Source: Allohoeflea poritis
GTDB lineage: Bacteria; Pseudomonadota; Alphaproteobacteria; Rhizobiales; Rhizobiaceae
Length of the DNA stretch: 64,000 nt
Direction: 5' to 3'
Assembly (NCBI RefSeq): GCF_027889715.1
Contig: NZ_JAPJZH010000005.1
Location: 124,001 to 188,000 of the forward strand
Below are positions 48,001 through 63,772 of this stretch, in pieces. A model generated the notes under the pieces. That model saw only the letters and a program-made list of their open reading frames with translations, did no database searches and was not told the origin of the DNA. The first letter of the stretch is position 1; each line of letters opens with the position of its first letter. Both the position numbers and the translations under genes were made by a program.

Positions 48001-48021
48001 TTAATATATATTATATAAGAC
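48001..48021. promoter_or_regulatory. Regulon palindrome, copy 1 (before dctQ)
   Basis: The right half ATATTATATAAGAC is identical to the best copy at 53251-53271; the left arm is weaker (AATAT instead of TCTTG). It lies 76 bp before the transporter start. See 53251 for the consensus. Confidence 0.7.
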
Positions 48022-48096
48022 TCTGCGGCGGCGATGTCCCGTTTGGGAGGACATGACATCCGAGCGGCCTGCGGACGCATTATGCGGGGGAGGATC

Positions 48097-48684
48097 ATGG
48101 CTGCCATCGTTGCCATCATAAGACCGCTGGCATGGGTTAACACCATGCTCCTGCGCATCGGGCGCAACATCGCCTGGGTGGCCATGGGGCTGATGGTGCT
48201 GATCATCGTGCTCCAGGTCGTGTTCCGTTACGTGCTGAATGACGCGCTTTCCTGGTCGGAGGAAGCGGCGCGCTTCCTGATGTTGTGGATGACCGGCCTC
48301 ATCGCCCCGAGCGCCTATCGCTGGGGCGGCTTCGTGTCGATCGATCTGGTCCATGACATGCTGCCGAAGCGTCTCGGCAACATCCTCGTCCTGATCCTGC
48401 TGCTGATCAGCCTCGCCGTCCTCGTTGTTGCGCTGCAGCTCGGCTACAAGCACGTCAATTCCGGATGGCGGTTCGATTCGCAGACGCTGAAAGTGTCACT
48501 CGATTTCATGGGATACGGCATCGTCCGTGCCAAGCAGGCGTGGATGTATATGTCGCTGCTGGTCGGCGTATTCCTGCTGCTGCTGGTCAATATCGAGCTC
48601 ACCCTGAAAACGATCGTCGGTATTGTCGACCCGTCCATTGAAGTGCCTGCGGACCAGGATCACCTGGTTATCACAGCGGAGTAG
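48097..48684 (+). CDS. TRAP transporter small membrane subunit (DctQ)
   Basis: A 195-residue protein with four hydrophobic helices and the DctQ-type motif VVFRYVLNDALSWSEEAARFLMLWMT. With DctM it forms the Na+-driven membrane part of a TRAP importer. The ATG at 48097 is chosen for its GGGGGAGGATC site. dctM follows 5 bp later. Given the neighbours, the cargo is probably sulfoquinovose, its glycoside, or sulfolactate. Confidence 0.88.
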   Translation: MAAIVAIIRPLAWVNTMLLRIGRNIAWVAMGLMVLIIVLQVVFRYVLNDALSWSEEAARFLMLWMTGLIAPSAYRWGGFVSIDLVHDMLPKRLGNILVLILLLISLAVLVVALQLGYKHVNSGWRFDSQTLKVSLDFMGYGIVRAKQAWMYMSLLVGVFLLLLVNIELTLKTIVGIVDPSIEVPADQDHLVITAE

Positions 48685-48689
48685 ACCAG

Positions 48690-49979
48690 ATGCTTTTTTT
48701 CTTTCTTCCGCTGTTCCTGATCTTCCTGATGATCGGCCTGCCGGTGTTCTTCGCTCTGCTCGCGGCGCCAGGGATCCTGCTGTGGCTGGCCGATCAGCCG
48801 CGCGACTTCGCGTTGCTCTACAAGAATGTCTACAACGGCATGAATTCCTTTCCGCTGATGGCCATCCCGTTCTTCATGCTGGCGGGCGAACTGATGAACC
48901 GGGGCGGCATCACGCTGCGGATTGTCGAGTTCAGCCAGTCGCTCATGGGGCATCTGCGCGGCGGTCTGGCACATGTGAACATTCTGTCGTCCATGCTGTT
49001 TGCCGGCCTTTCCGGGTCGGCGGTGGCCGACACATCGGCCCTGGGATCGATGCTGATCCCGGCCATGGAGAAGAACGGCTATACGCGCAAATTCGCGGCG
49101 GCGATCACGGCGGCCTCATCGGTGATCGGGCCGATCATCCCGCCGTCCGGCATCATGATCATCTACGCCTATGTCATGGGCGAGTCGGTGGCGGCGCTTT
49201 TCCTGGCCGGCATTGTGCCCGGCGTTCTGGTCGGCGTCGGGCTGATGCTGATGACCGCCTATCTGGCGAAATCCAACGATTTTCCCGCGGCGGCCGAGCG
49301 CGCCACCTACCGTCAGCGAGGGCAGTCGTTTGTGCGGGCATTCTTCCCGCTGATGACCCCGGTGATCATCCTCGGCGGTATCCTTGCCGGTGTCTTCACG
49401 CCGACCGAAGCCGCGGCCGTGGCGGCGGTCTATGCGTTCATCGTGTCGATGTTCATCCTGCGGACCATGGTCTGGGCCGATCTGCCGCGGGTGCTGATCA
49501 AGGCGTCGCTGACGACATCCGTCGTGCTGCTGCTGGTCGGCGCGGCGATGGCCTTCAAGACCGTGGTCAGCCTCAGCCACGCGCCGGAGATCCTGGCCGC
49601 TTTCATCCTGAATCTGACGGAAAATCCCTATCTGCTGCTGTTTCTCATCAATGTGCTTCTGTTCATTGTGGGCATGTTCCTGGATGCCGGTCCGGCGATT
49701 ATCATCCTGGGGCCGATCCTGGCGCCGATTTTCACCGATCTTGGCGTCCATCCCGTGCATTTCGCCATCATCATGAGCGTCAACCTGACCGTCGGCCTGG
49801 CGACGCCGCCCATGGGGCTGGTGCTGTTCGTGGCCTCCAGCGTCTCCGGCGTGAAGGTGGAAACGATCGCCCGCACGATCCTGCCGTTCCTTGCGGTGGA
49901 GATCCTGGTGATCTTCCTCATAACCTATATTCCGGGGATCTCCATGGCGGTGCCGGAGTTTTTCGGCTTCATCAAATAA
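48690..49979 (+). CDS. TRAP transporter large membrane subunit (DctM)
   Basis: A 429-residue protein with about twelve helices and the DctM signature sequences: NSFPLMAIPFFMLAGELMNRGG, SGSAVADTSALGSMLIPAM and ASSVIGPIIPPSGIMIIYAYV. Length is standard. It is in an operon with dctQ; the binding-protein gene follows after a separate regulon palindrome. Confidence 0.93.
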   Translation: MLFFFLPLFLIFLMIGLPVFFALLAAPGILLWLADQPRDFALLYKNVYNGMNSFPLMAIPFFMLAGELMNRGGITLRIVEFSQSLMGHLRGGLAHVNILSSMLFAGLSGSAVADTSALGSMLIPAMEKNGYTRKFAAAITAASSVIGPIIPPSGIMIIYAYVMGESVAALFLAGIVPGVLVGVGLMLMTAYLAKSNDFPAAAERATYRQRGQSFVRAFFPLMTPVIILGGILAGVFTPTEAAAVAAVYAFIVSMFILRTMVWADLPRVLIKASLTTSVVLLLVGAAMAFKTVVSLSHAPEILAAFILNLTENPYLLLFLINVLLFIVGMFLDAGPAIIILGPILAPIFTDLGVHPVHFAIIMSVNLTVGLATPPMGLVLFVASSVSGVKVETIARTILPFLAVEILVIFLITYIPGISMAVPEFFGFIK

Positions 49980-50058
49980 GCGGGGCGGAAACCGCGAAAA
50001 TTGAACCACCAGGCGCGCGGCAGGGTCTGCGCGCTTGACAAGCGAATGCCAGTCTTTA

Positions 50059-50079
50059 ATCTTTTATCTTATATAAGAC
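50059..50079. promoter_or_regulatory. Regulon palindrome, copy 2 (before dctP)
   Basis: ATCTTTTATCTTATATAAGAC differs from the best copy at three or four positions. It lies 31 bp before the dctP start and gives this gene its own controlled promoter within the transporter locus. Confidence 0.75.
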
Positions 50080-50110
50080 TTGCCGTGCGATTGACTTCGG
50101 GAGGATCCAA

Positions 50111-51205
50111 ATGATCGCGAAAAGGACTGCAAATATTCTGGGCGCTTTTGCGCTCGGGCTGTCGATGACCGCCGTGTCCACGTTGACGGATGGCGCCATG
50201 ACGGCTGCTGAAGCGGCGGACTACAAGCTGCGCGCGACGGCCAATTCGAACGAAAACGACGAGGACTATGACGGTCTGATCGTTTTCAAGGACTATGTCG
50301 AAAAGGCATCCAACGGGGCCATCGAAGTCGAGCTGTTCATCGGAACGCAGCTCTGCTCCAACGGCGCGGAATGCCTGCAGGGCATTTCCGACGGTACCAT
50401 CGACATCTACATTTCGACCTCCGGCGGCGCTTCGGGCATCTTCCCTTACGTGCAGGTCCTCGACCTTCCCTATCTGCTGCGCGACGACCGCATTGCCGAG
50501 GAAGTGTTGAGCGAAGGCACGTTCACACGCGCCATTCGCGACCTGGCGCTCAATGATTCCGGCGGAACCATCCGCCTGATGACCATCGGCAACACCGGCG
50601 GCTGGCGCAACTTCGCCAACACCAAGCGCCGCGTTCAGGCACCCGGCGACATGGAAGGCCTGAAGATCCGTACCGTGGTCGCCGACCTGCCGCAGGAACT
50701 GGTGAAGGCGCTCGGCGCGTCTCCGACCCCGATTCCGTGGCCGGAGCTCTTCACCTCTTTCCAGACCGGCGTGGTCGAAGGCTCGAAGAACGGCATCACC
50801 GATATCATGGGCATGAAGTTCCCGGATGCCGGCCTGAAATATGTCACCCTCGACGGACACGCCTATATGGGCGCCCTGTGGTGGATGAGCAATGACACCT
50901 TTATGTCGATGCCTGAAGACATGCGCCGTGTCGTTGTCGACGGCTTTGCCGCCCTGCAGCAGGCGACATTCGCCTCGCCCAAGCGCAAATCCATTCAGGC
51001 CTATTCGGACTTTGTCGCCGAGGGCGGCGACCTCTACGTGCCGACGCCCGAGGAAAAAGCCGCTTTCAAGGAGGCTGCGGCCCCCGTCTATGAGTGGTTC
51101 AAGGCCAATATCGACAATGGCGATGCTGCATTCACGGCCCTGACCGACGCGGCTGCCGGTGCCGAAGCAAAAATTGACGGCAATGCCGCAATGGATGTCA
51201 AATAG
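50111..51205 (+). CDS. TRAP transporter solute-binding protein (DctP)
   Basis: A 364-residue periplasmic protein. After a signal peptide (up to about AAEA, residue 36) it has the DctP pattern YKLRATANSNENDEDYDGLIVFKDYVEKASNGAIEVELF and the conserved Arg in GLKIRTV, which in this family pairs with the acidic group of the ligand. A sulfonate could take that place. The GGAGGATCC site is strong. A perfect hairpin follows the gene. Confidence 0.9.
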   Translation: MIAKRTANILGAFALGLSMTAVSTLTDGAMTAAEAADYKLRATANSNENDEDYDGLIVFKDYVEKASNGAIEVELFIGTQLCSNGAECLQGISDGTIDIYISTSGGASGIFPYVQVLDLPYLLRDDRIAEEVLSEGTFTRAIRDLALNDSGGTIRLMTIGNTGGWRNFANTKRRVQAPGDMEGLKIRTVVADLPQELVKALGASPTPIPWPELFTSFQTGVVEGSKNGITDIMGMKFPDAGLKYVTLDGHAYMGALWWMSNDTFMSMPEDMRRVVVDGFAALQQATFASPKRKSIQAYSDFVAEGGDLYVPTPEEKAAFKEAAAPVYEWFKANIDNGDAAFTALTDAAAGAEAKIDGNAAMDVK

Positions 51206-51254
51206 GCGGACTCTTCCGATTTCGGCCACCGGCTGAATCGGACCGACGAAAGAA

Positions 51255-51278
51255 GAGGCCGCACGGTTGTGCGGCCTC
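51255..51278 (+). terminator. Strong hairpin after dctP
   Basis: GAGGCCGCAC (51255-51264) pairs perfectly with GTGCGGCCTC (51269-51278) around a 4-base loop. The T run is short, but the stem is very stable. It separates dctP from the convergent Sel1-like gene. Confidence 0.75.
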
Positions 51279-51302
51279 TCGCATTGAGCGGGATGTGATC
51301 CG

Positions 51303-51794
51303 TCAGCGAAAAGGATACATCCAGGGTTTGTAGTCGTTGATGAGGATCTGCGCGTGCTCAATCTGATCAGGCGTCATTTTCTTGACCACCTCCTCAAGGC
51401 TGATCGCCGCATCGGGGTCGCCGCCGATCGCCGAAAGCACGTACCACATATAGGCGCGTACCAGATCGGGCTCCGGCATGCCGCGGCCGATCTCGTAGTA
51501 CCAGCCGACACCCGACTGGGCGCCCGGGTGGCCCTTCATCGCCGAGCGCAGATACCATTCGAAGGCACGCACATCGTCGCGCGGCACGCCAAGGCCCATG
51601 GCGTACATGATGCCGATCAGCTCTTCCGCGTCGGCATTGCCCGAGCGGGCCGCCGGAAGCAGTTCCTGCATCGCCTCCTCGAAACGGCTTTCCTCCATCA
51701 GGTCGCGGGCGGTCTCTATCTCGGCAAGCGCCGGCGAGCCGCAAACAAGACCGGCAAAAATCAGCGCCGCAACAAACCTGGCCGAATAACCCAT
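51303..51794 (-). CDS. Exported Sel1-like (TPR) repeat protein
   Basis: A 163-residue protein with a signal peptide (FVAALIFAGLVCGSPALA) and Sel1-type repeats: AEELIGIMYAMGLGVPRDDVRAFEWYLRSAMKGHPGAQSGVGWYYEIG and a third degenerate copy. Such proteins make protein-protein contacts in the envelope. The ATG at 51794 follows AGAGGA. Divergent from the cytochrome c peroxidase gene; both sit between two halves of the sulfosugar regulon without carrying its palindrome. Confidence 0.82.
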   Translation of the reverse strand: MGYSARFVAALIFAGLVCGSPALAEIETARDLMEESRFEEAMQELLPAARSGNADAEELIGIMYAMGLGVPRDDVRAFEWYLRSAMKGHPGAQSGVGWYYEIGRGMPEPDLVRAYMWYVLSAIGGDPDAAISLEEVVKKMTPDQIEHAQILINDYKPWMYPFR

Positions 51795-51835
51795 ATATTC
51801 TTGTCCTCTCTTCGTGTCGGTCCCGGAGGGATACC

Positions 51836-53203
51836 ATGTTGAAAACGAAGCATAGCAACCGCCGGCGCATGGGCAAGGTCTGCGTGATTGTCGGCGCCTT
51901 TGTTGCGGGGTGGTGTCCGGCGCTGGCGCTCGCCGACGCGATAACGCTGCCGCAGGCGCTGTCGGAAGCAGATTTTCTTCCGTTCGACGAAAAGAAGGCG
52001 GCACTCGGCCGGCTCCTGTTTTACGACCCCGTCCTGTCCGGCAACCGCAATATCTCCTGCGGCACGTGCCACCATCACGACCTGGCCAGCGCGGACGGGC
52101 TGGCGCTCGGTGTCGGCGAAGGCGGCGAGGGCATCGGTGATGAGCGCACAACGGGCGCCGGCCGCGACAGGATCGACCGCAGGGTGCCGCGCAATGCGCC
52201 GGCGCTGTTCAATATCGGTCACAAGGACATACGCCATCTGTTCCATGACGGACGGCTGAGCATCGACGATCTTTACGGCAATGGGTTCAATTCGCCGGCG
52301 GAGGAATATCTGCCGCAGGGGCTGAACAGCCTGGCGGCGGCGCAGTCGCTTTTCCCGATCACATCGGAAACGGAAATGGCCGGTCATTCCGAGGAAAACG
52401 CCGTCGCCGGCGCACGCAACGACCGGATCGATCATGCGTGGCGGCTGATTGCGAAACGCGTCAGCGTCGTTCCCGCCTACGGACCCTTGTTCGCGGACGC
52501 CTACCCGGACGTGGGCGGCCCGGCGGACATCACGATCGTGCATATCGGCAATGCGATCGGGGATTTTGTCAACTCCGAGTGGCGTTCCCACGACAGCCCG
52601 TTCGACCGCTATCTGAGTGGCGAGCCGGGCGCGCTGAGCGAGGAAGCGCGAGCCGGGATGGATCTGTTCTACGGGCAGGGCGGCTGCTCATCCTGCCACA
52701 GCGGCGCTCTGTTCACCGACCAGGAGTTCCACGCGCTGGCCCTGCCGCAATTCGGGCCGGGCCGCACCCGCATGTTCGACCTCATGCAGCGCGATGTCGG
52801 GCGCATGGTGGAGACGGACCGGCTTGAGGATGCCTATCGTTTCCGCACGCCTTCGCTGCGCAACAGCGCCCTGACGGGACCCTACGGCCACAACGGCGCC
52901 TATGAGACGCTGGAGGGCATTGTCCGGCATCACCTCGATCCCCAGGCGGCGTTCGATCGCTGGAGCCGCGAGCAGGTATCGCTGCCGGCGGCCGAGCATC
53001 TTTCGGAAGCCGATTTCGCGCCGCTGCAGGACAGGCGCGAACGGGCGCGTGTGCGCAATGCGGTTGACATCGAGCCGGTTGCCCTGGAGGACCGGGAGGT
53101 GCAGCAGCTTATCGCATTTCTGAACGCGCTGACGGGCGACAAAAGTGTCAAGGGCCGGCTTGGCAGGCCGGACAGCGTGCCCAGCGGATTGCCGGTCGAC
53201 TGA
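51836..53203 (+). CDS. Di-heme cytochrome c peroxidase / MauG-family protein
   Basis: A 455-residue exported protein with two c-type heme motifs: CGTCH near residue 74 and CSSCH near 284, plus a signal peptide at the start. The segments ALGRLLFYDPVLSGNRNISCGTCH and RTPSLRNSALTGPYGHNGAYETLEG are typical of the CCP/MauG family. It may remove peroxide or modify a partner. It lacks the regulon palindrome and its link to sulfosugar use is open. Confidence 0.9.
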   Translation: MLKTKHSNRRRMGKVCVIVGAFVAGWCPALALADAITLPQALSEADFLPFDEKKAALGRLLFYDPVLSGNRNISCGTCHHHDLASADGLALGVGEGGEGIGDERTTGAGRDRIDRRVPRNAPALFNIGHKDIRHLFHDGRLSIDDLYGNGFNSPAEEYLPQGLNSLAAAQSLFPITSETEMAGHSEENAVAGARNDRIDHAWRLIAKRVSVVPAYGPLFADAYPDVGGPADITIVHIGNAIGDFVNSEWRSHDSPFDRYLSGEPGALSEEARAGMDLFYGQGGCSSCHSGALFTDQEFHALALPQFGPGRTRMFDLMQRDVGRMVETDRLEDAYRFRTPSLRNSALTGPYGHNGAYETLEGIVRHHLDPQAAFDRWSREQVSLPAAEHLSEADFAPLQDRRERARVRNAVDIEPVALEDREVQQLIAFLNALTGDKSVKGRLGRPDSVPSGLPVD

Positions 53204-53250
53204 CTGTTCAGGAGCGGTTTTTTCCGCCCGGCGCATTTTGCGCTCCTGTT

Positions 53251-53271
53251 GTCTTGTATATTATATAAGAC
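53251..53271. promoter_or_regulatory. Regulon palindrome, copy 3 (before the kinase); best copy
   Basis: GTCTT (53251-53255) and AAGAC (53267-53271) are inverted arms around an AT-rich core (GTATATTATAT). Matching sites stand at 48001, 50059 and 59216. All four are followed by CT or CTTG. The site also resembles a -10 region, so a bound repressor would block RNA polymerase. The likely protein is the UTRA-GntR regulator at 58418-59152. Confidence 0.82.
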
Positions 53272-53312
53272 TTGATAGATTGCACGAAAACTGGAGACCT
53301 AACCACTCCGTC

Positions 53313-54209
53313 ATGCCCACTGTTCTTGCTGCCGGCGCCGCCGTCGTCGACTTCGTTTTTCAGCTTGATGAAGCCCCTTCCCGCTCGGAAAAACACCGGG
53401 CGCGCGATGCGGCGATCGTCGGTGGCGGCTGCGCTGCCAATGCGGCGGTCGCGGTGGCGCGGCTTGGCGGAAAGGCGGTGCTGGCCGCCCGGCTAGGCAA
53501 CGACGTTATCGGCGACATGATCATTACGGATCTGGAAAAGGAAGATGTCGACTGTTCGCTGGTCAAGCGGATCGAAGGCCGGCGATCGTCCTACTCGTCG
53601 GTGCTTGTCGACCCGCAGGGCGAACGCAGCATTGTCAATTTCCGCGACCGCGATATCGATGCCGGCGGCAGCTGGCTGGACAAGCTCGAATTGCCCTCCT
53701 TTGACGTGGCGCTTGCCGATACGCGCTGGCCGGACGGTGCGCGGGTGACGATGGCGGCAGCCCGGCAGCGCGGCGTGCCTGGTGTCATCGATGGCGAAGC
53801 GCCTGTGCGCGAGGCCCAGGAAGCGCTGAGCAGCGCCACGCATATCGCCTTTTCGCGCGCCGGCCTGCAGGATTTCGACGGCGGCGACGACATCGGGACA
53901 GCGCTGAAGCGCGCCGCCGAAGAAACCGGCGCCTGGGTCTGCGTGACGCAGGGCGCCGAAGGTGTCCACTGGCTGGAGGGCGGCGCCATGAAGCATATGC
54001 CGGCTTTCGAGGTCGCGGTGGTTGACACGCTGGGCGCCGGCGATATCTGGCACGGTGCCTTCGCGCTTGGATTGGCGCAGGGCAAGAGCGAAGAGCAGGC
54101 GATCGTTTTCGCCAGCGCCGCCTCGGCGATCAAATGCACCCGTTTCGGCGGCCGTATGGGTACGCCGTCCGAAAGGGACGTTGAACAATTCCTCAAGGAG
54201 AATTCCTGA
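53313..54209 (+). CDS. yihV: Sulfofructose kinase, YihV/SqiK type (PfkB family)
   Basis: A 298-residue ribokinase-fold kinase, the same length as E. coli YihV. It has GGGCAANAAVAVARLGG early and the catalytic DTLGAGDIWHGAF late. The protein keeps Asn109 (SIVNF) and Arg138 (ADTRWPDG) at the same numbering as the residues reported to hold the sulfonate in YihV, and the flanks match YihV closely (ADxRWxDGA, HxAFSxxGL, VTQGxxGxxWLE, KCTRxGGRxGxP). So 6-deoxy-6-sulfofructose is the likely substrate. Starts 42 bp after the palindrome; its stop overlaps the aldolase start. Confidence 0.87.
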   Translation: MPTVLAAGAAVVDFVFQLDEAPSRSEKHRARDAAIVGGGCAANAAVAVARLGGKAVLAARLGNDVIGDMIITDLEKEDVDCSLVKRIEGRRSSYSSVLVDPQGERSIVNFRDRDIDAGGSWLDKLELPSFDVALADTRWPDGARVTMAAARQRGVPGVIDGEAPVREAQEALSSATHIAFSRAGLQDFDGGDDIGTALKRAAEETGAWVCVTQGAEGVHWLEGGAMKHMPAFEVAVVDTLGAGDIWHGAFALGLAQGKSEEQAIVFASAASAIKCTRFGGRMGTPSERDVEQFLKENS

Positions 54210-55252
54210 TGCAGCTTTCACCGGGTAAATTGTGGGGCCTGCGGCGCATGGCCGACGATGCCGGACGCTTCAAGATGACCGCTGTCGACCAGCGTCCGCC
54301 GATCAAGAACCCGATCGCCGCCCATTACGGGGCGGATGAGGCGCCTTATGACGATGTGGCGCGCTTCAAGGCACTGCTGATCGAAATGCTGCAGGAACAA
54401 TCCTCGGCGATGTTGCTCGATCCGCACTACGCCGTCCCGCGCGGTATTGAATTCCTGTCTCCGACAAAGGGACTGATCGTCACGCTCGAGGATTCGCTTT
54501 TTGAAGAGACGTCCGGCGGCCGCCTGTCATCGGAGATCGATGACTGGTCGGTGGCCAAGATCAAGCGCATGGGCGGCGATGCGGTCAAGGTGCTGGCCTG
54601 GTACCGGCCGGATGCATCGGCTTCGGTCAATGGGCATCAGAAGGATTTTGTCAAGCGCATCGGCGAGGCCTGCGCGCGCTACGACATTCCGTTCCTGTTC
54701 GAGTTGCTGGTCTATCCGCTGTCGAGCGACGCGCACCAGACGACCGACTATATCGAATTGCAGGGCAAGAAGGCCGACGACGTGCTGGCCTCCGTCGAGG
54801 AATTTGCCGGCGCGGATTACGGCGTCGATGTCTTCAAGCTGGAAAGCCCGGTCAATGCGGACGATGTGCCCGGCGTCGGCAATGACGGCTGGGAGGCGGT
54901 CCAGAAGGTCTATGACGAGATGGGCCGTCTGGCCGGCCGTCCCTGGGTGATGCTGTCGGCGGGCGCCGGCAAGCCGCAGTTCCGCAACATCCTGACCCAC
55001 GCCTACCGCGCCGGCGCGTCGGGCTATCTTGCCGGACGGGCGATCTGGCTCGACGCTTTCGCGCAGTTCCCGGACTGGGATCTTGTCCGCGCCGGTCTCG
55101 GCGGTGAGTCAGTTGACTATATGAACGATTTGAACGCTCTGACCGACGCCGAGGCCGCGCCCTGGCAGTCGCATCCTGCCTATGGCGAAGGCGGTGCGCG
55201 TTTCGCTCCCAACGACGCCAGCTTCCGGCACGGCTATGGAGATTTTGCCTAA
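54209..55252 (+). CDS. Class I aldolase, YihT/LacD type (candidate sulfofructose-1-phosphate aldolase)
   Basis: A 347-residue TIM-barrel aldolase. The Schiff-base Lys is Lys210 in VDVFKLESPVN; FKMTAVDQR, KVLAWYRPD and WVMLSAGAGKPQF, then AGASGYLAGRAIW match YihT and tagatose-1,6-bisphosphate aldolase. It would split sulfofructose-1-phosphate to DHAP and 3-sulfolactaldehyde. It is longer than YihT (292) and nearer to LacD or the sulfo-EMP2 aldolase. Start overlaps the kinase stop. Confidence 0.82.
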   Translation: MQLSPGKLWGLRRMADDAGRFKMTAVDQRPPIKNPIAAHYGADEAPYDDVARFKALLIEMLQEQSSAMLLDPHYAVPRGIEFLSPTKGLIVTLEDSLFEETSGGRLSSEIDDWSVAKIKRMGGDAVKVLAWYRPDASASVNGHQKDFVKRIGEACARYDIPFLFELLVYPLSSDAHQTTDYIELQGKKADDVLASVEEFAGADYGVDVFKLESPVNADDVPGVGNDGWEAVQKVYDEMGRLAGRPWVMLSAGAGKPQFRNILTHAYRAGASGYLAGRAIWLDAFAQFPDWDLVRAGLGGESVDYMNDLNALTDAEAAPWQSHPAYGEGGARFAPNDASFRHGYGDFA

Positions 55253-55278
55253 TGACGGCTTGGCTTGCACAGCCGGAA

Positions 55279-55869
55279 CTAGTCCAGCAGGAGGCGGGCG
55301 GCTACCTCCAGCGCCGGCCCTTCCGAACCGCTGTTGCGCGCCGGTGCGACGATAACCGCCTCTCCCTGCCGCGGAAGGATGCCGGTCAGTGCCTCGACAT
55401 TCTCCGGGTGGGTGACCATGACCTGATTGCCCGGCCCGCGAAACTGGCGGATGATCTCGATAACCTCTTCATTCCTCTTGGCAAGCAGGTCCGGATCGTC
55501 CTCGACGAGGTCGAGCGCCTCCAGCGGTTCGGCCTCGACATCGCGGAAGGCGTTCTGCGCCGTTTCAAGCGTGCGGCACCACTGGCTGGAATAGATCCGG
55601 GAAATCGATACCGCGCGCGCCGCAAAACGAACGCCGCGCCGGCGCGCCTGCTGGCGTCCGCGATCGGAAAGATTGCGCTGGGTCGTGCAGTCGTCGAGCT
55701 CGAAAAAAGGTGGATCGCCCACACCCGGCGCGAGGGCGTGCGTCAGCAGGATCGTATAGCCGCCGGTCGCCAGCCGTGCCCATGCCGCCTCCGTTGAACC
55801 CGCCTTGGACGCAACAAATGAAAACACCAGCACAAGAATGGCGGCAAAGGCAGAGGGACGTCGTTTCAT
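55279..55869 (-). CDS. Exported histidine-phosphatase fold protein with altered active site
   Basis: A 196-residue protein with a signal peptide (AFAAILVLVFSFVASKAGS) and a histidine phosphatase fold: LLTHALAPGVGDPPFFELDDCTTQRNLSDRGRQQARRRG, RIYSSQWCRTLETA and VMVTHPENVEALTG. The first catalytic motif has Thr where the family has Arg (THA for RHG/RHA), so normal phosphatase activity is doubtful. It is antisense to the surrounding genes, between aldolase and isomerase. Confidence 0.82.
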   Translation of the reverse strand: MKRRPSAFAAILVLVFSFVASKAGSTEAAWARLATGGYTILLTHALAPGVGDPPFFELDDCTTQRNLSDRGRQQARRRGVRFAARAVSISRIYSSQWCRTLETAQNAFRDVEAEPLEALDLVEDDPDLLAKRNEEVIEIIRQFRGPGNQVMVTHPENVEALTGILPRQGEAVIVAPARNSGSEGPALEVAARLLLD

Positions 55870-57311: not shown

Positions 57312-57324
57312 GAGTAACGCACAG

Positions 57325-58410
57325 ATGAGCACACTACGCTACGGCATTATCGGTTCGGGCATGATGGGGCAGGAGCACATCAGGAACCTGGCGCTGATCG
57401 ACGGCGCGAAAGTCAGCGCCGTCGCCGACCCGAACGGCGATATGCGCCGGCAGGCGGCGGAACTGGCCGGGCCCGATTGCCGCATGTTCGACGACCATGA
57501 CGCGCTGATTAAATCCGGCGGCTTCGATGCGTTGGTCATTGCCGCGCCAAACCACCTGCACCGGCCGATCCTCGGCGATGTGCTGAAGGTCGACGTGCCG
57601 CTGCTTGTCGAAAAACCGCTCGGCATCGACGGGCTGCAATGCCGCGAGATCATGGCGACGGCGAATGGCCGGCGCGCGCCAGTCTGGGTGGCGATGGAAT
57701 ATCGGTACATGCCGCCGATCGCCCGCCTGCTCAAGGAAGTGCATGCCGGGGCAACGGGCACGCCCAGGATGATCGCCATACGCGAGCACCGGTTTCCATT
57801 CTTGAGCAAGGTGGGCGACTGGAACCGTTTCCAGGACCAGACCGGCGGCACGATGATCGAGAAATGCTGCCATTTCTTCGACCTGATGCGGCTTGTCTCC
57901 GGTTCGGAGGCCGTGCGGGTTTTTGCTTCCGGCGGCATGGATGTGAATTTCCGCGACGAAACCTTCGGCGGCCGCAAGGCCGACATTCTCGACAATGCCT
58001 TTGTCATCGTCGATTTCGAGAACGGCATGCGGGCCATGCTTGATCTGTGCATGTTTGCCGAAGGCGCCTACTGGCAGGAAACGGTCAGCGTGACGGGCGA
58101 CAAGGCGCGCATCGATGCCTATGTCCCCGGCCCGGCGCGCTTCTCGCCGGATGGGCAGGAGCGGCATGCGAAGCTGGTAATCTCACCGCGCGAGACCAAA
58201 ATGCCGGTCAGCGAGGACATCAAGACCGACGAGGCGATCCTGTCCGCCGGTGATCATCACGGCTCGACCTTCTATCAGCACCAGAAATTCGCACAGCTGA
58301 TCCGCGAGGGCGGCGCGCCGGAGGTGACGATGGATGACGGTACGCGGGCGGTCGAAATCGGCGCCGCGGCAGAGGAATCGGTGAAGACCGGAATGCCGGT
58401 TCGTCTCTAA
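57325..58410 (+). CDS. Gfo/Idh/MocA-fold protein (candidate NAD-dependent sulfoquinovosidase, GH188-like)
   Basis: A 361-residue protein with the Rossmann motif GIIGSGMMGQEH at the N-terminus, the EKP motif (LVEKPLGIDG) and GGTMIEKCCHFFDLMRL in the catalytic part. Sulfosugar clusters of other bacteria carry Gfo/Idh/MocA-fold sulfoquinovosidases (GH188) that use NAD in an oxidation-elimination route. Position and the intact NAD and Lys-Pro motifs support that role. A simple sugar dehydrogenase cannot be excluded. Convergent with the regulator gene, 7 bp apart. Confidence 0.7.
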   Translation: MSTLRYGIIGSGMMGQEHIRNLALIDGAKVSAVADPNGDMRRQAAELAGPDCRMFDDHDALIKSGGFDALVIAAPNHLHRPILGDVLKVDVPLLVEKPLGIDGLQCREIMATANGRRAPVWVAMEYRYMPPIARLLKEVHAGATGTPRMIAIREHRFPFLSKVGDWNRFQDQTGGTMIEKCCHFFDLMRLVSGSEAVRVFASGGMDVNFRDETFGGRKADILDNAFVIVDFENGMRAMLDLCMFAEGAYWQETVSVTGDKARIDAYVPGPARFSPDGQERHAKLVISPRETKMPVSEDIKTDEAILSAGDHHGSTFYQHQKFAQLIREGGAPEVTMDDGTRAVEIGAAAEESVKTGMPVRL

Positions 58411-58417
58411 TTGGTTC

Positions 58418-59152
58418 CTAAGGCAGGCTGACCGTGTAGTGCATGGCATCCGTCAGGCAGCGCGAGGATCGCAGTTCCACCGCATTGCCCTCAAGATCGC
58501 GGGCGATGCGGGTGATCAGAAGCAGCGGCTCGCCGACACCGCAGCCAAGCTCGGCCGAATCGCGCGCGTCGCACAGGATGGCCTTGAGCTTCTCGTCGGC
58601 CTTGGCGATGGTGATGCCCCAGCGCGTCGAATAAAGCCGGTAGATGTTGTTGGGTATTTCCGAAAGCTCGTCGAACCCGGGATAGATGGCGCTCGGAATG
58701 GTGATCGTCTCGGCCAGGACCGAACGGCCCGCGAGCATGCGCACGCGCTCTATGCGCCAGACCTGGTCTTTCGGATCGATGGCCAGCGCCCGGGCTTCCG
58801 CCCCGGTTGCCGGTTCCAGCGACCAGTTCACAAGGCGCGAATTCGGGAAGCTGCTTTCATCGGTCTTTTCATCCGACGCCAGGCGGAAAAACTGGAACAG
58901 GATACGCGAATCCTCAGGCTCGGCGACAAAGGTGCCACGGCCCTGCTGCCGCACAAGCAGACTTTCGGCCGTCATGGCGTCGAGCGCCTTGCGGACGGTG
59001 CCCTGGCTGACCTTCAGCTCGCGGGCGAGATCCTGTTCGCTTGGAATATTGGTGCCCGGTTGCCACGTGCCGTCGACAAGGCGGCGGATAAGCTGATCCT
59101 TGACCTGAGCGTAAAGCGGTTTGAAACCGATATTCGTATCTGTCTCTTGCAA
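58418..59152 (-). CDS. GntR-family regulator, UTRA (HutC) subgroup
   Basis: A 244-residue protein: GntR winged helix (IPSEQDLARELKVSQGTVRKALDAM, QGRGTFVAEP) and a UTRA ligand domain (about residues 90-240). HutC-type proteins are repressors released by a small ligand. It lies in the middle of the sulfosugar regulon and a palindrome (59216-59236) stands 64 bp before its start and 45 bp before suyA. It probably controls itself and the four palindrome-bearing units. Confidence 0.88.
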   Translation of the reverse strand: MQETDTNIGFKPLYAQVKDQLIRRLVDGTWQPGTNIPSEQDLARELKVSQGTVRKALDAMTAESLLVRQQGRGTFVAEPEDSRILFQFFRLASDEKTDESSFPNSRLVNWSLEPATGAEARALAIDPKDQVWRIERVRMLAGRSVLAETITIPSAIYPGFDELSEIPNNIYRLYSTRWGITIAKADEKLKAILCDARDSAELGCGVGEPLLLITRIARDLEGNAVELRSSRCLTDAMHYTVSLP

Positions 59153-59215
59153 AGGCGGTCCCTTGATTCTTCCCTCCTGTTTACCGCGATCCGGTTGACA
59201 AAGCCAGCATATTGT

Positions 59216-59236
59216 ATCTTATATAATATATAAGAC
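59216..59236. promoter_or_regulatory. Regulon palindrome, copy 4 (between gntR and suyA)
   Basis: ATCTTATATAATATATAAGAC is the most symmetric copy: TCTTATATA and TATATAAGA are perfect inverted arms. It serves the divergent gntR and suyA promoters and so links the sulfolactate module to the sugar-side genes. Confidence 0.82.
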
Positions 59237-59280
59237 TTGGCGCGCATGCGCCGACTTTCCAACCCATATTGGAGGCAAGC

Positions 59281-59568
59281 GTGAGTATCCCGCAACTGCT
59301 GGTGCACGACCACAAGGACAATGTCGGTGTCGTTGTCGTCGAAGACCTGACTGCCGGCACGAACATGACCTGTGTCGTGACCGAAGACGATTCCGATTTC
59401 GAGCTGACATCCAACGACGATGTTCCCATCGGCCACAAGGTGGCGCTGCAGGATTTTGCGGTTGGCGACACGGTGATCAAATATGGCGAGGACATCGGCA
59501 AGGTGGTCGCGCCGATCAAAAAGGGCGCGCATGTCCACGTCCACAATCTGAAAACCAAGCGCTGGTAG
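59281..59568 (+). CDS. suyA: (2R)-sulfolactate sulfo-lyase subunit alpha (SAF domain)
   Basis: A 95-residue SAF-domain protein: [53 protein letters not shown], then [15 protein letters not shown]. The small separate SAF subunit is the SuyA arrangement; altronate dehydratase UxaA has both parts fused. With SuyB it releases sulfite from (R)-sulfolactate, giving pyruvate. GTG start at 59281 after TTGGAGGCAAGC. suyB follows 10 bp later. Confidence 0.88.
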
Positions 59569-59578
59569 GAGGCTGATC

Positions 59579-60745
59579 ATGTCACGAAAGATTATGGCGT
59601 ACCGGCGCGAGAACGGCCGGGTCGGCGTCCGCAATCACGTTGCCATCCTGCCGCTGGACGATATTTCGAACGCGGCCTGCGAGGCCGTGGCCAACAATAT
59701 CAAGGGCACGATGGCGCTTCCGCACTCCTATGGCCGGCTGCAGTTCGGCGAGGATCTGGAGCTGCATTTCCGTACGATGATCGGCACCGGCGCCAACCCC
59801 AATGTCGCGGCCGTCGTCGTCATCGGCATCGAGCCGGAATGGACGAAAGTCGTCGTCGACGGCATTGCCGAGACCGGCAAGCCGGTCACCGGCCTTTCCA
59901 TCGAGCAGAACGGCGATATCGCCACCATCGCGTCGGCATCGCGTGTCGCGAAGGAATATGTGCATTGGGCGACGGAACTGCAGCGCGAAGAATGCGACAT
60001 CTCCGAATTGTGGATCTCGACCAAGTGCGGCGAGAGCGACACGACCACGGGCCTTTCTTCCTGCCCGACCGTCGGCAACATGTATGACAAGCTTTTGCCA
60101 GGCGGCATTTATGGCTGTTTCGGCGAGACGTCGGAAATCACCGGCGCGGAGCATCTTTGCGCCGAGCGTGCGGCCACGCCGGAAGCCGGCGAGAAATTCA
60201 TGCGCATCTGGCAGGCCTATCAGGATGACGTGATCGAGGCGCACAAGACATCCGACCTCTCCGACAGCCAGCCGACCAAAGGCAACATCCTGGGTGGTCT
60301 GACCACGATCGAGGAAAAGGCGCTTGGAAACCTTGAAAAGATCGGCCGCACGTCCCGCTATGTCGATGCGCTCGGTCCCGCTGAAAAGCCGCAGATGGGC
60401 AACGGGCTCTATTTCATGGACACTTCGTCTGCCGCGGCCGAGTGCGTGACGCTGATGGCTGCTGCCGGTTATGTCATCCACACTTTCCCGACGGGGCAGG
60501 GCAATGTCATCGGCAATCCCATCGTTCCGGTCATCAAGATCTCGGGCAATCCGCGCACGCTGCGCACGATGAGCGAGCATATCGATGTCGATGTGACGGG
60601 CGTCTTGCGGCGCGACATGACCATCGATCAGGCGGGCGATGCGCTGATCGACATGATCGCGCGCACGGCGAATGGCCGCAGCACGGCGGCCGAGGCGCTG
60701 GGGCACCGCGAATTCGTCATGACCAAGCTTTACCGCAGCGCCTGA
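59579..60745 (+). CDS. suyB: (2R)-sulfolactate sulfo-lyase subunit beta
   Basis: A 388-residue protein of the UxaA C-terminal family and the length of SuyB. It has [66 protein letters not shown] and [20 protein letters not shown]. The Cys residues at CGESD and SSCPT are likely Fe or cluster ligands. The sequence and the split gene pair point to sulfolactate rather than altronate or galactarate. It is the step that frees sulfite. Confidence 0.88.
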
Positions 60746-60798
60746 TTTATGGAAGGGTCGTCCTTCATCCAAATTGGCGCTGAAAACCGGTAGAACTG

Positions 60799-61737
60799 AT
60801 GTCCAAGATTGTCATCACAGAATTCATGGACGACGCGGCCGTGGCCGCGTTGTCGCAGGGGCATGAGACCCATTACGATCAGGGGCTGGCGGACCGCCAG
60901 GAAGAAATTGGCCCACTGATTGCCGATGCCGCTGCGCTTATCGTGCGCAATCGCACGCAGGTGAACCAAGCACTGCTGGACGCCGCACCCGGTCTCAAAT
61001 GCGTCGGACGCCTGGGTGTCGGTCTCGACAATATCGACATGGATGCCTGCAAGGCGCGCGGTGTCGCGGTCTATCCGGCGACGGGTGCGAACAATGCCAG
61101 TGTCGCCGAATATGTGATTGCCAATGCCATGCTGCTACTGCGGGGTGCCTATCAGTCGACCGGCGCGATGCTGCAGGGGGACTGGCCACGCCAGGCGCTG
61201 ATGGGTCGCGAGCTGGCGGGCCACACGCTGGGCCTGGTCGGCTTCGGCGCGATCGCACGCGAGGTCGCGGTGCGCGCCGGCGTGCTCGGCATGGATATCG
61301 TCGCTTACGATCCGCATCTGATGGCGGACGATCCGGGCTGGCAGCTTGCCCGCAATGTGTCGCTGGACGGCGTTCTGGAACTGGCCGATGTCGTCAGCCT
61401 GCACACGCCGCTCAACGACAGGACGCGGCACATGATCGATGCGGATGCCCTTGCGAAAATGAAAGAGGATGCGGTGATCATCAATGCCGCGCGCGGCGGT
61501 GTCATCGACGAGGAGGCGCTTGCGGCGGCTCTGGCACAGGGACGGCTGGGGGGCGCTGCTCTGGATGTCTTCGAGACCGAGCCATTGACCGCCGAGGCCG
61601 CGATGAAATTCAGCGGCCTGAACAATCTGGTTCTGACGCCGCATATCGCCGGCGTGACCGTGGAATCGAACATTCGCGTCAGCGCGCTGACCGTACAGAA
61701 TGTTCTCAACCATCTGGCGGGGACGGACGGCCGATGA
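60799..61737 (+). CDS. slcC: (S)-sulfolactate dehydrogenase, SlcC type (D-2-hydroxyacid dehydrogenase family)
   Basis: A 312-residue NAD-dependent dehydrogenase. The nucleotide motif GLVGFGAIAREVA lies near residue 145, catalytic Arg in INAARGG, Glu in DVFETEPL and His in LTPHIAGVT. The N-terminus (KIVITEFMDDAAVAAL) and its position after suyAB match SlcC, which oxidises (S)-sulfolactate to sulfopyruvate. Together with ComC it turns the S- into the R-isomer that SuyAB uses. Overlaps comC by 4 bp. Confidence 0.85.
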   Translation: MSKIVITEFMDDAAVAALSQGHETHYDQGLADRQEEIGPLIADAAALIVRNRTQVNQALLDAAPGLKCVGRLGVGLDNIDMDACKARGVAVYPATGANNASVAEYVIANAMLLLRGAYQSTGAMLQGDWPRQALMGRELAGHTLGLVGFGAIAREVAVRAGVLGMDIVAYDPHLMADDPGWQLARNVSLDGVLELADVVSLHTPLNDRTRHMIDADALAKMKEDAVIINAARGGVIDEEALAAALAQGRLGGAALDVFETEPLTAEAAMKFSGLNNLVLTPHIAGVTVESNIRVSALTVQNVLNHLAGTDGR

Positions 61738-62741
61738 CACAGGCGGGCGAACGGATGAGCGCCGATGCGGTGCATGCGCTGATATGCGGCGCGCTGGAAC
61801 GCAGCAACACATCGCCGCAAAATGCGGCCAGCGTCGCCGATGCGCTGCTTGCTGCCGAACTTGCCGGCCAGAGGGGCCACGGCCTGCGCCGGGTCCCGAC
61901 CTATGCGGCGCAGGCTGCCGTCGGCAAGGTCGACGGTCATGCCGTGCCCGGCCTCGAACAGCACCGGCCGGCGGCGGCGCTGGTCGATGCCGCAAACGGC
62001 TTTGCCTATCCCGCCATTGTGCTCGCGCATGACTGGCTGGCCAGGACCTGCCCGGAACAGGGGATCGCCATTGCGGGCATCACCCGCTCGCATCATTGCG
62101 GCGTTGCCGGTGTCATCGTCGAGCAGCTCGCCGAGCAGGGTCTTGCTGCCATGCTCTTTGCCAACACGCCGGCGGCGATGGCGCCGTGGGGCGGCAAGCG
62201 CGCGCTTTACGGCACGAACCCGATCGCCTTCTCCGCGCCGCTTGCCGATGGCGATCCCGTGACGGTCGACATATCGCTTTCACGGGTCGCGCGCGGCAAG
62301 ATCATGGCCGCGAACCAGAGCGGCGATGCCATTCCCGAAGGTTGGGCCTTCGATGCGGACGGCCAGCCGACCACCGATCCCGCGGCGGCGCTCGCGGGCA
62401 CCATGGCGCCGCTCGGCGATGCCAAGGGCACGGTGCTGGCACTGATGGTCGAGTTGATGTGCGCCGGTCTCACGGGTGCCAACTACAGCTATGAGCAGAC
62501 CTCGTTCCTCAACGCGGAAGGCGGGCCGCCGGGCGCCGGACAGACACTGATCGCCTTTGACCCCGGTCTTTTCGGCAGCGACGGGCGGGCGCGCTTCGCG
62601 GCCATGGCGCGGATGATCGAGGAGACGGAGGGCGCCAGGCTGCCGGGACGGCGCCGGCAATCGCTGCGACATGACCTCAGCGCCAACGGCATTCCCGTCG
62701 ATATGAAGCTGATCGCGGATATCGAGGCGATCGGTCTTTAG
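61734..62741 (+). CDS. comC: (R)-sulfolactate dehydrogenase, ComC type (Ldh_2 family)
   Basis: A 335-residue malate/L-lactate dehydrogenase-family enzyme with GQRGHGLRRVPTYA, the catalytic His in GITRSHHCGVAG, MAPWGGKRALYGTNPIAFSAP and a late C-terminal substrate helix. ComC reduces sulfopyruvate to (R)-sulfolactate. Start ATG at 61734 overlaps the slcC stop. A frame that seems to start near 61000 is the wrong reading of slcC and is not coding there. The stop codon is the first three bases of a repeat end. Confidence 0.85.
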   Translation: MTQAGERMSADAVHALICGALERSNTSPQNAASVADALLAAELAGQRGHGLRRVPTYAAQAAVGKVDGHAVPGLEQHRPAAALVDAANGFAYPAIVLAHDWLARTCPEQGIAIAGITRSHHCGVAGVIVEQLAEQGLAAMLFANTPAAMAPWGGKRALYGTNPIAFSAPLADGDPVTVDISLSRVARGKIMAANQSGDAIPEGWAFDADGQPTTDPAAALAGTMAPLGDAKGTVLALMVELMCAGLTGANYSYEQTSFLNAEGGPPGAGQTLIAFDPGLFGSDGRARFAAMARMIEETEGARLPGRRRQSLRHDLSANGIPVDMKLIADIEAIGL

Positions 62742-62771
62742 AGCGTGTCTGGCTTAGCTTCAAGCATTTGA
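62739..62771. repeat. Repeat end related to the 22471 element
   Basis: TAGAGCGTGTCTGGC... for 33 bp matches the left end of the 22471-22683 element at 27 of 33 positions, including the last 8 bases GCATTTGA. Only one end is present here. Its first three bases are the comC stop codon. Confidence 0.75.
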
Positions 62772-62851
62772 TGGCGGGTCGGTGTTCCTTCCCTTGTCAT
62801 GCGTTTTTCATAGTTTAAAGGCATGGAGGTCCGGATCGATGCGAGGCCTTC

Positions 62852-63772
62852 ATGACAGACAGCATGTTTTCGGCGCCCGGCCGATTCTTCCGGGGAAATC
62901 TGCATACCCACAGCAACCGCTCCGACGGTGCCCTTGAGGCGGAGGAAGTGTGCCGGCGTTACAAGGCGGAAGGTTACGACTTTCTGGCGCTGACCGATCA
63001 TTTTGTCGGGTTGTACGACTATCCGATCACCGACACGGCGCCCTTTCGGGACAATCAGTTCACGACAATTCTCGGCGCCGAGCTGCATTCGGGCGCCATG
63101 GCCAATGGCGAGCTGTGGCATATTCTCGCCGTCGGGTTGCCGGAGGATTTCGAAGCGCCGAACGCGCCGCATTTCAAGCCGGTCGAAGAACAGGAAAGCG
63201 GCGCCGAGATTGCCCGCCGGGCGCGCGAGGCCGGTGCCTATGTGGCGATTGCCCACCCGCAATGGTCGGCACTGACCATGGAGGATGCGCGCACGATCGA
63301 CGCGGCGCATGCGGTCGAGGCCTATAATCACGGCTGCGCCGTCGGCGCCGACCGCGCGGACGGCTTCCATACGCTTGACCTGCTCTTGTCGGAAGGCCGC
63401 AGGCTCGATCTTTGCGCAACGGACGACGCCCATTTCACCGAACCCGACTATTTCGGCGGCTGGGTCATGGTCAAGGCGCAGGAAAACCGCCCGGAAAGTC
63501 TTTTGGAGGCGCTCAAGGCGGGCCACTACTATTCGAGCCAGGGTCCCGATTTCGTCAATATCTCATGGGGCGAGAAGTCGGTGGATATCGAAAGCAGCGC
63601 CGTTTCCTCGGTGATTGTCCAGGGACAGGGCTCGGCGGCGGTCGCCGTGCATGGCGAGGCGATGACCAAAACGCAGGTGCCGCTGATCCGTTTCACCGAT
63701 TCACCCTGGCTGCGGGTAACGATCGTCGACCGCGCCGGCAAGCGTGCCTGGTGCAATCCGGTCTGGCGATAG
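62852..63772 (+). CDS. PHP-domain metallohydrolase (CehA/McbA-like)
   Basis: A 306-residue protein with the PHP signature: GNLHTHSNRSDGALEAEEVC (His-x-His and Asp), LALTDHF, ILGAELHSG and CATDDAHFTEPDYFGGW. It is a metal-dependent hydrolase, similar to CehA/McbA carbaryl hydrolases. It follows the sulfolactate genes, but a role with a sulfosugar ester or glycoside is conjecture. The stop codon is again the start of a repeat end. Confidence 0.85.
   Translation: MTDSMFSAPGRFFRGNLHTHSNRSDGALEAEEVCRRYKAEGYDFLALTDHFVGLYDYPITDTAPFRDNQFTTILGAELHSGAMANGELWHILAVGLPEDFEAPNAPHFKPVEEQESGAEIARRAREAGAYVAIAHPQWSALTMEDARTIDAAHAVEAYNHGCAVGADRADGFHTLDLLLSEGRRLDLCATDDAHFTEPDYFGGWVMVKAQENRPESLLEALKAGHYYSSQGPDFVNISWGEKSVDIESSAVSSVIVQGQGSAAVAVHGEAMTKTQVPLIRFTDSPWLRVTIVDRAGKRAWCNPVWR

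Follow-up and report, generated by a model that had tools for sequence, protein, structure and literature searches.

Gene content and conservation of the locus

We analysed a stretch of 64,000 nucleotides from the genome of Allohoeflea poritis (NZ_JAPJZH010000005.1, positions 124,001 to 188,000), hereafter the window, which is part of contig C50 in an assembly of 5.58 Mb and 54 contigs. The window contains a 15-kb gene cluster that we predict to serve the use of sulfoquinovose (SQ), a sulfosugar of plants and algae, with a sugar half leading to sulfolactaldehyde and a second half that desulfonates sulfolactate. A preliminary description had named a YihV-like kinase, a YihT/LacD-type aldolase, a fucose-isomerase-like protein, a Gfo/Idh/MocA protein, a tripartite ATP-independent periplasmic (TRAP) transporter and suyA, suyB, slcC and comC. 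Each of these genes is present at or near the position then assigned to it, and to them we add an epimerase, a MauG-like protein, a Sel1-repeat protein, a histidine phosphatase and a GntR-UTRA regulator, the last three on the minus strand. The features, in window coordinates, are as follows.

about 46879-47895, plus strand: aldose-1-epimerase family protein, candidate SQ mutarotase (PF01263, 264 bits; 22.8% identity to E. coli YihR)
48011-48022, no strand: operator-like site, copy 1, 5' of dctQ (exact TTATATAAGACT)
48034-48684, plus strand: dctQ, TRAP small permease (PF04290, 79 bits)
48690-49979, plus strand: dctM, TRAP large permease (PF06808, 392 bits; TIGR00786 above cut-off)
50069-50080, no strand: operator-like site, copy 2, 5' of dctP (exact TTATATAAGACT)
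50111-51205, plus strand: dctP, TRAP solute-binding protein (PF03480, 178 bits)
51303-51794, minus strand: Sel1-repeat protein with a signal-peptide-like N terminus by eye (PF08238, 54 bits)
51836-53203, plus strand: MauG/CCP-like di-heme protein with two CxxCH motifs (PF03150, 115 bits)
53261-53272, no strand: operator-like site, copy 3, 5' of the kinase gene (exact TTATATAAGACT)
about 53313-54209, plus strand: PfkB kinase, predicted sulfofructose kinase of the YihV type (best PDB match YihV, 7ag6)
54209-55252, plus strand: class I LacD/DeoC aldolase, candidate sulfofructose-1-phosphate aldolase (PF01791, 81 bits)
55279-55869, minus strand: histidine-phosphatase family protein (PF00300, 30 bits)
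55914-57311, plus strand: SftI/SqvD-type aldose-ketose isomerase (NF048012, 291 bits)
57325-58410, plus strand: predicted GH188 sulfoquinovosidase (SqgA), Gfo/Idh/MocA family (8qc3, 385 bits, residues 2-361)
58418-59152, minus strand: GntR-UTRA regulator (PF00392 and PF07702)
59226-59237, no strand: operator-like site, copy 4, one mismatch, between gntR and suyA (overlapped by a near-copy from 59217)
about 59269-59568, plus strand: suyA, start codon uncertain (N-terminal part of the galactarate dehydratase model, 42 bits)
59579-60745, plus strand: suyB, predicted (R)-sulfolactate sulfolyase large subunit (PF20629, 273 bits; PF04295, 116 bits)
60799-61737, plus strand: slcC, 2-hydroxyacid dehydrogenase, (S)-sulfolactate dehydrogenase candidate (PF02826 and PF00389; gene order)
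61734-62741, plus strand: comC, Ldh_2 family, (R)-sulfolactate dehydrogenase candidate (NF040650, 185 bits; gene order)

For comparison we used 101 related genomes (labelled G001 and so on) and fetched genome stretches that carry L labels. A contig scan yielded 224 isomerase relatives, and the top 80 define the 80 named loci; 55 of these span at least 19 kb and are termed long loci, and contig ends may hide further genes. Around the isomerase in 17 stretches from related genomes, the aldolase was found in 15 and the kinase in 14, with L038 and L041 lacking both. Across the 80 named loci, the kinase occurs in 71, the aldolase in 70 and the GH188 gene in 68, and in 57 the order kinase-aldolase-isomerase-GH188 forms a same-strand run. 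Because these three genes recur beside the isomerase in relatives, the grouping is not due to chance. Within the long loci we counted the kinase in 49, the aldolase in 50, GH188 in 50, SlcC in 42, Sel1 in 40, MauG in 39, the epimerase (GalM) in 30, GntR, SuyA and SuyB in 12 each and ComC in 11. The join of the sugar half with SuyAB is not unique to this genome, as the 12 SuyB loci show; the joined regulon was seen in Hoeflea, Nitratireductor and two further genera, which we take to be Rhodobacterales. Of the named relatives found, Nitratireductor sp. XY-223 is the closest, its isomerase being 81% identical. In 37 of the 80 named loci, the upstream region includes a DeoR-family gene (one member confirmed by Pfam). 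A PHP-domain gene at 62852-63772, considered as a further member, was excluded, being present in 1 of the 55 long loci.

Enzymes of the sugar half

The protein first described only as Gfo/Idh/MocA does belong to that family, and a full-length match to 8qc3 together with its residues corrects the assignment to a GH188 sulfoquinovosidase, predicted to act on SQ glycosides with nicotinamide adenine dinucleotide (NAD+). Among solved chains it scored 385 bits with 8qc3, 382 with 8zn9 and 376 with 8qc2, nearly full length, and 82 with the next. We take these three chains to be SqgA enzymes, the database table naming them oxidoreductases, and the link of 8qc3 to PMC10755693 is likewise our own assignment. 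In the Arthrobacter enzyme ArSqgA, the sulfonate is contacted by Arg166, Leu170 (backbone) and Lys172, and the catalytic residues are Lys107, Tyr136, Glu189, His193 and His321 (PMC10755693). All eight have an identical counterpart in the window protein, and the ninth residue considered, Glu163, falls one position off a glutamate in the alignment, so that eight of nine could be placed; the residues were read by hand off the 8qc3 alignment (constant offset of 13) and the motifs were confirmed by script. Given this identity, the substrates probably include glycosides, for example sulfoquinovosyl glycerol.

The fucose-isomerase-like gene does encode a sugar isomerase, of SqvD/SftI-like rather than YihS type. 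NF048012, the model for the sulfoquinovose isomerase SftI, is its sole NCBIfam match, with a score of 291 bits (curated cut-off, 700), and no solved relative was found by sequence at E 0.001. The confident structural model (predicted local distance difference test score, pLDDT, 89.8) best matched arabinose isomerase (Foldseek E 1.9e-20) and FucI (6.9e-15), with a template-modelling (TM) score of about 0.5-0.6 and a root-mean-square deviation of about 23 Å over whole chains, the domain placement being unmatched. The protein is thus predicted from the model to have the fucose/arabinose isomerase fold.

Among PDB entries, the kinase is closest to YihV (7ag6, 232.7 bits; next, 172), and it is 41% identical to YihV of E. 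coli. Counterparts of YihV K27, N109, R138 and D244 are kept, and K27, N109 and R138, which we take to form the sulfonate pocket of YihV, are retained in 60, 55 and 60 homologs, respectively, of the 60 aligned for each of the kinase and the aldolase. The aldolase shares 26% identity with YihT and has retained the equivalents of K193, presumably the Schiff-base lysine, and R253, presumably also essential, as have all 60 of its homologs. YihT is not its nearest solved relative: 8tnf (320 bits) and LacD (136 bits) both score above YihT (about 67 bits). For this reason, the "YihT/LacD-type" label is better read as LacD/8tnf kinship with the YihT lysine and arginine retained, that is, as an enzyme that would be YihT-like in action and not a YihT ortholog.

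By its sequence matches, the enzyme set is a predicted hybrid of the Embden-Meyerhof-Parnas-type sulfoglycolytic pathways sulfo-EMP1 and sulfo-EMP2; such hybrids have already been noted in reviews (PMC12890257, PMC9594981). The histidine-phosphatase gene, which lies between aldolase and isomerase in the window and whose product looks exported, occurs in 13 of the 80 named loci, each of which has a close GntR, and in 10 of the long loci.

The sulfolactate half and the sulfolactaldehyde step

SuyB holds both GD_AH domains, SuyA is the matching small subunit, and the pair adjoins SlcC and ComC; SuyAB thus fits an (R)-sulfolactate sulfolyase and is predicted to cleave the C-S bond. The best NCBIfam model for ComC is that of L-sulfolactate dehydrogenase (NF040650, 185 bits against a curated cut-off of 500). 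We use the names SlcC and ComC because the gene order follows that of Chromohalobacter and Paracoccus, where it has a precedent (PMC9594981). In one relative (L033, 15828-18862), a tripartite tricarboxylate-type transporter, likely for sulfolactate, is encoded between suyB and slcC. A single Mo-co_dimer (sulfite-oxidase-type) protein is encoded in the A. poritis genome, on contig C51.

Relatives carry one of two desulfonation modules. Among the 80 named loci, SuyB occurs in 12 and ComDE (sulfopyruvate decarboxylase) in 14, with no overlap, and the ComDE pair of L047 (region 15830-16887) passes the NCBIfam cut-offs. The 42 long loci with SlcC divide into 12 with SuyB, 11 with ComE and 19 with neither. 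ComDE near the isomerase presumably marks a second route through sulfoacetaldehyde and Xsc, and since the modules do not overlap, either can serve the sulfolactate end. Xsc itself does not separate the two types, being above cut-off in 12 of the 12 ComDE genomes scored (there are 14 such loci) and in 9 of 12 SuyB genomes.

The preliminary description had the pathway running from SQ all the way to sulfite and pyruvate. Both halves are indeed joined here, but no gene of the cluster accounts for the step from sulfolactaldehyde to sulfolactate: an aldehyde dehydrogenase is absent from the 29 frames scanned with Pfam and NCBIfam profiles from 43.8 to 63.9 kb. The full conversion therefore requires an unlinked enzyme. 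A dehydrogenase hidden in the cluster was considered and rejected, as the A. poritis genome has 28 matches to the cluster-linked enzyme of L082, all of them outside the window. The best two of these, GabD-like and 55% identical, are encoded on other contigs; one adjoins a gene resembling a gamma-aminobutyrate (GABA) aminotransferase by eye, and both score above the cut-off for succinate-semialdehyde dehydrogenase, a result shared by two of the three cluster-linked enzymes tested. A GabD/SlaB-like gene is linked in 33 of the 80 named loci, including 11 ComDE loci and only 3 of the 12 SuyB loci. In the same-genus genome G001 (L129) it lies between a VWA gene and GalM, and in the window GalM stands directly 3' of the VWA gene with nothing between. 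Paracoccus wurundjeri likewise has no identified sulfolactaldehyde dehydrogenase, and GabD is named among the classical ones (PMC12421959), which makes an unlinked GabD the likeliest candidate here.

An operator-like site shared by both halves

The intergenic regions before dctQ, dctP, the kinase gene and suyA have in common TTATATAAGACT, exactly or with one mismatch, within the palindrome GTCTTATATAAGAC. Exact copies of TTATATAAGACT number three in the whole 5.58 Mb, all in the cluster, against none for the reversed control. Allowing one mismatch, the window contains five copies (0.02 expected by shuffling), four in the cluster and one outside it at 30450. The near-copy from 59217 that overlaps copy 4 has two mismatches to a 13-base pattern. 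At up to two mismatches, the genome gave 23 matches, 9 of them within the cluster, and the reversed control gave 42; what stands out is therefore confined to the cluster matches with no or one mismatch. One of the matches elsewhere (C44:91378) is followed about 250 bases on by an open reading frame resembling an ATP-binding cassette (ABC) permease by eye.

An 11-base core, TTATATAAGAC, is present in all 14 named loci whose GntR is more than 55% identical to that of the window, against 3 of the 66 others. Two of the exceptions, L105 and L110, carry the core about 70 bases 5' of the kinase gene with no GntR match in the stretch, and in the third, L074, it lies 3' of the GH188 gene. No such site is present in L108 and L120, two further loci in which SuyB is accompanied by a GntR of just 37% identity. 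In the 14 loci with a close GntR, sites precede the kinase gene and occupy the gntR-suyA gap (merely degenerate in L093), and they also precede dctQ and dctP where close forms of these genes lie in the stretch. The kinase and gntR-suyA sites persist in the same-genus genome G006. The earlier statement that both halves are under one regulator is thus borne out as far as a common site before units of both; GntR would be the protein that binds it, as its co-occurrence with the core suggests, and the genes from kinase to GH188 would form a single transcript.

This arrangement bears on two other accounts of the cluster. According to one, SQ is in practice used only in part, with sulfolactaldehyde being reduced or sulfolactate excreted, and SuyAB, SlcC and ComC serve external sulfolactate. 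It would explain why no sulfolactaldehyde dehydrogenase is linked, and the transporter of L033 fits sulfolactate uptake in that relative. Against it speak the single operator-like site that stands in front of units from each half, the absence of a transporter from those scanned frames of the window that lie between gntR and comC, and the two GabD-like proteins encoded elsewhere in the genome, and we consider it unlikely. According to the other, a route for a non-sulfonated sugar of the tagatose or fucose type merely adjoins a separate sulfolactate operon. The generic family names alone (PF00294, PF01791, PF02952) would suit that account; against it stand the shared site, a predicted sulfoquinovosidase within the sugar half, the presumed sulfonate-pocket residues of the kinase and the conservation of the join in 12 of the 55 long loci; we hold it to be highly improbable.

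The importer and its Sel1 and MauG-like partners

The TRAP importer was previously thought uncommon in such a setting. This does not hold, since a DctP homolog is encoded in 45 of the 55 long loci: a close DctP accompanies both Sel1 and MauG in 39, stands alone in 4 and is joined by Sel1 in 1, a distant DctP without Sel1 or MauG occurs in 1, and the remaining 10 have none of the three. The Sel1 protein is conserved in 59 fetched loci (some genomes counted twice), and by eye both it and the MauG-like protein look exported.

The same importer module also stands beside different catabolic genes. Four genomes, the same-genus G002 and G005 together with G046 and G019, encode a DctP that shares 82-83% identity with that of the window; there the TRAP-Sel1-MauG genes lie next to genes whose set resembles, by sequence, the SQ monooxygenase (sulfo-SMO) route; the part played by each of these genes is our assumption. 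In L146 (G005) and L147 (G046), alkanesulfonate-monooxygenase-like and Gfo/Idh/MocA proteins adjoin the module, with an aldo-keto reductase, a flavin reductase and a GntR protein in addition in L147, and G002 and G019 show the same gene order by eye. PMC12890257 names the key enzymes of the sulfo-SMO route (its Table 1). L146, L147 and L148 retain the GH188 motifs. Stretches L137-L140, which carry TRAP-Sel1-MauG with sulfo-SMO-type genes, yielded no kinase, aldolase or isomerase; no isomerase match exists in G046 or G019 and only a distant one (about 30%) in G002 and G005, and the monooxygenase of these loci has no match in the A. poritis genome at E 1e-60. The isomerase occurs in 18 and the monooxygenase in 10 of the 101 genomes, and a test of whether the two exclude each other gave no significant result (P = 0.13). 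Since two unlike chemistries have the importer and the type of glycosidase in common, SQ or its glycosides are the likely substrate, and DctP would bind SQ or sulfoquinovosides.

The shared importer helps to judge a further alternative, that the sulfosugar degraded by the sugar half is not SQ but sulfofucose or sulforhamnose, via sulfotagatose, with the rest of the scheme unchanged. The aldolase belongs to the family of tagatose-bisphosphate aldolase, and Paracoccus wurundjeri joins sulfofucose catabolism to SlcC, ComC and SuyAB, its PfkB and LacD-family genes being uninduced (PMC12421959). Yet the cluster includes a GH188 gene with the kept residues, and FlSqgA, a GH188 enzyme, cleaved SQ glycosides and not the tested glucosides or glucuronide, sulfofucosides being unmentioned in the text covered (PMC10755693). 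The importer is common to SQ-monooxygenase-type loci, the YihV residues are retained, and none of the 29 frames scanned around the cluster matched the sulfofucose-enzyme families. We therefore regard this alternative as improbable.

Of the 101 genomes, 12 encode a MauG homolog with an identity of 53% or higher, and all 12 have an isomerase (at least 41%) or monooxygenase (at least 72%) homolog, markers found in 28 of the 101 (P = 2.6e-8); outside the genus the association is 5 of 5 (P = 3e-4), and in both tests the cut-offs were picked after the matches were known and kinship was ignored. With the next tier (46-49%) included, 13 of 14 have a pathway marker, G070 having neither. In G099 the MauG gene is away from the cluster with no TRAP genes nearby, and in G088 it accompanies TRAP and Sel1 genes, the isomerase being encoded on another contig. 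Tentatively, TRAP-Sel1-MauG could be a dedicated sulfosugar-uptake module that makes SQ use dependent on a periplasmic di-heme MauG-like enzyme and that swaps as a unit between kinase-aldolase and monooxygenase pathways; we think this possible but doubtful. Under such a scheme, MauG would most likely mature Sel1 or the binding protein oxidatively, and less likely act on sulfolipid or its glycoside. If it were true, alphaproteobacterial SQ mineralisation would be built of interchangeable modules, including SuyAB or ComDE-Xsc ends. In the literature searched, no title among the matches listed concerned a TRAP importer of SQ, nothing was found on sulfoquinovosidase, TRAP transporter and sulfolactate together, and the sole match for MauG, peroxidase, Sel1 or TRAP that mentions sulfoquinovose was a gut taurine paper.

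Proposed route and points against it

The cluster is well supported as a GH188-gated, TRAP-fed, kinase-aldolase route for SQ that is tied to sulfolactate desulfonation by an operator-like site. We consider it very probable that it is a GntR-controlled regulon for the aerobic use of SQ glycosides, including all their carbons and their sulfur. This reading draws on gene content, protein families, key residues, conserved order and the operator-like site before four units, and it postulates each reaction, the contact between regulator and operator, the inducer, the transcript extents and the sulfolactaldehyde dehydrogenase. In the proposed route, DctPQM would import SQ or sulfoquinovosyl glycerol, and SqgA would free SQ in the cytoplasm. 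The SqvD-type isomerase would convert SQ to sulfofructose, which the YihV-type kinase would phosphorylate to sulfofructose-1-phosphate and the LacD-type aldolase would split into dihydroxyacetone phosphate (DHAP) and (S)-sulfolactaldehyde. A GabD-like aldehyde dehydrogenase encoded elsewhere could then form (S)-sulfolactate, SlcC and ComC would invert it via sulfopyruvate to (R)-sulfolactate, and SuyAB would release sulfite and pyruvate.

Several points weigh against this reading. The isomerase and ComC score under the curated cut-offs of NF048012 and NF040650, and the closest solved match of ComC is 1wtj (198 bits), which is no sulfolactate dehydrogenase, against 130 bits for the L-sulfolactate dehydrogenase 2x06. 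The aldolase is nearer by sequence to LacD-type enzymes than to YihT, and YihT positions 131, 242 and 243 differ in it in the alignment. To the dehydrogenase missing from the cluster may be added the operator-like site, which does not directly precede the epimerase, mauG, Sel1 or phosphatase genes in the intergenic regions checked; membership of the epimerase in the regulon is for this reason only conjectured. The same-genus genome G006 lacks TRAP, Sel1 and MauG genes at this locus, while the catabolic genes are kept. Finally, MauG, Sel1 and the histidine phosphatase fit nowhere in the proposed scheme.

Relation to known systems

Like the sulfo-EMP pathway of the E. coli yih cluster, the window encodes a PfkB kinase and a class I aldolase (41% and 26% identical to YihV and YihT), which by analogy would yield DHAP and sulfolactaldehyde; YihS, YihQ, YihU and YihO have no match among window proteins, and the window instead has an SqvD-type isomerase, a GH188 glycosidase, a TRAP importer and desulfonation genes. 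As in sulfo-EMP2 and hybrid EMP1/2 clusters, an SqvD-type isomerase replaces YihS beside sulfo-EMP1-type enzymes (PMC12890257, PMC9594981), whereas the kinase is of the YihV type and the aldolase of class I, not SqiK and SqiA, the cluster is alphaproteobacterial and SuyAB is attached. The Arthrobacter sulfo-EMP cluster with SqgA also combines a GH188 gateway with sulfo-EMP enzymes, but strain AK01 left sulfolactate as the sole product in the medium (PMC10755693), whereas the sulfolactate genes of the window share the operator-like site. Extended transaldolase (sulfo-TAL) clusters of Thermotogae and Chloroflexi likewise hold a sugar half and SuyAB (PMC9594981); theirs is a transaldolase route, and that of the window a kinase-aldolase route with SlcC and ComC. 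The tandem pathway of P. wurundjeri resembles the window in its sulfosugar half with SlcC, ComC and SuyAB and in its dehydrogenase gap, and differs in its Entner-Doudoroff route for sulfofucose and its ABC transporter (PMC12421959). The same-genus sulfo-SMO-type clusters (G002, G005) share the TRAP-Sel1-MauG importer module and a GH188-type gene, with monooxygenase-like, aldo-keto reductase and flavin reductase genes in place of isomerase, kinase and aldolase.

SQ production is estimated at about 10 billion tons per year (PMC12890257, PMC10755693). In the usual description, sulfoglycolysis ends with a C3 sulfonate whose mineralisation falls to another organism (PMC9594981, PMC13372026), and coexistence of both halves in one bacterium has been called unusual (PMC12421959). 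Some SQ degraders that cleave a C-C bond also carry C3-sulfonate genes (PMC12890257), and Klebsiella releasing traces of sulfate is cited in PMC12421959. Figure 5 of PMC10755693 depicts alphaproteobacterial clusters and may include parts of the window's gene order; the main text of that paper does not mention TRAP, a transporter or SuyA. The pathway itself is a variation on known ones, and the most novel point is the partnership of MauG and Sel1 with the importer. The presence of the joined regulon in several genera suggests that SQ mineralisation by single organisms may exceed the described frequency. The operator-like site offers a DNA signature for finding joined SQ-to-sulfite regulons, and the sulfolactaldehyde oxidation step and the MauG-Sel1 partner become directly testable in cultured species.

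Additional loci

Four further observations were made in this genome and its relatives. On contig C50 itself, about 70 kb away (L024, about 249.6-254.1 kb), a second cluster holds distant homologs of the aldolase (33%), GntR (28%) and isomerase (26%). In the same-genus genome G001, molybdopterin-binding and 2Fe-2S proteins are encoded between the sulfoquinovosidase and gntR genes (L029, 13930-16744). G059 has eight isomerase matches on several contigs, two of them near full length at 43%. In G040 (L034, 5521-14424), an isomerase 59% identical and a kinase and aldolase 42-47% identical to those of the window lie with apparent ABC transporter genes, as judged by eye.

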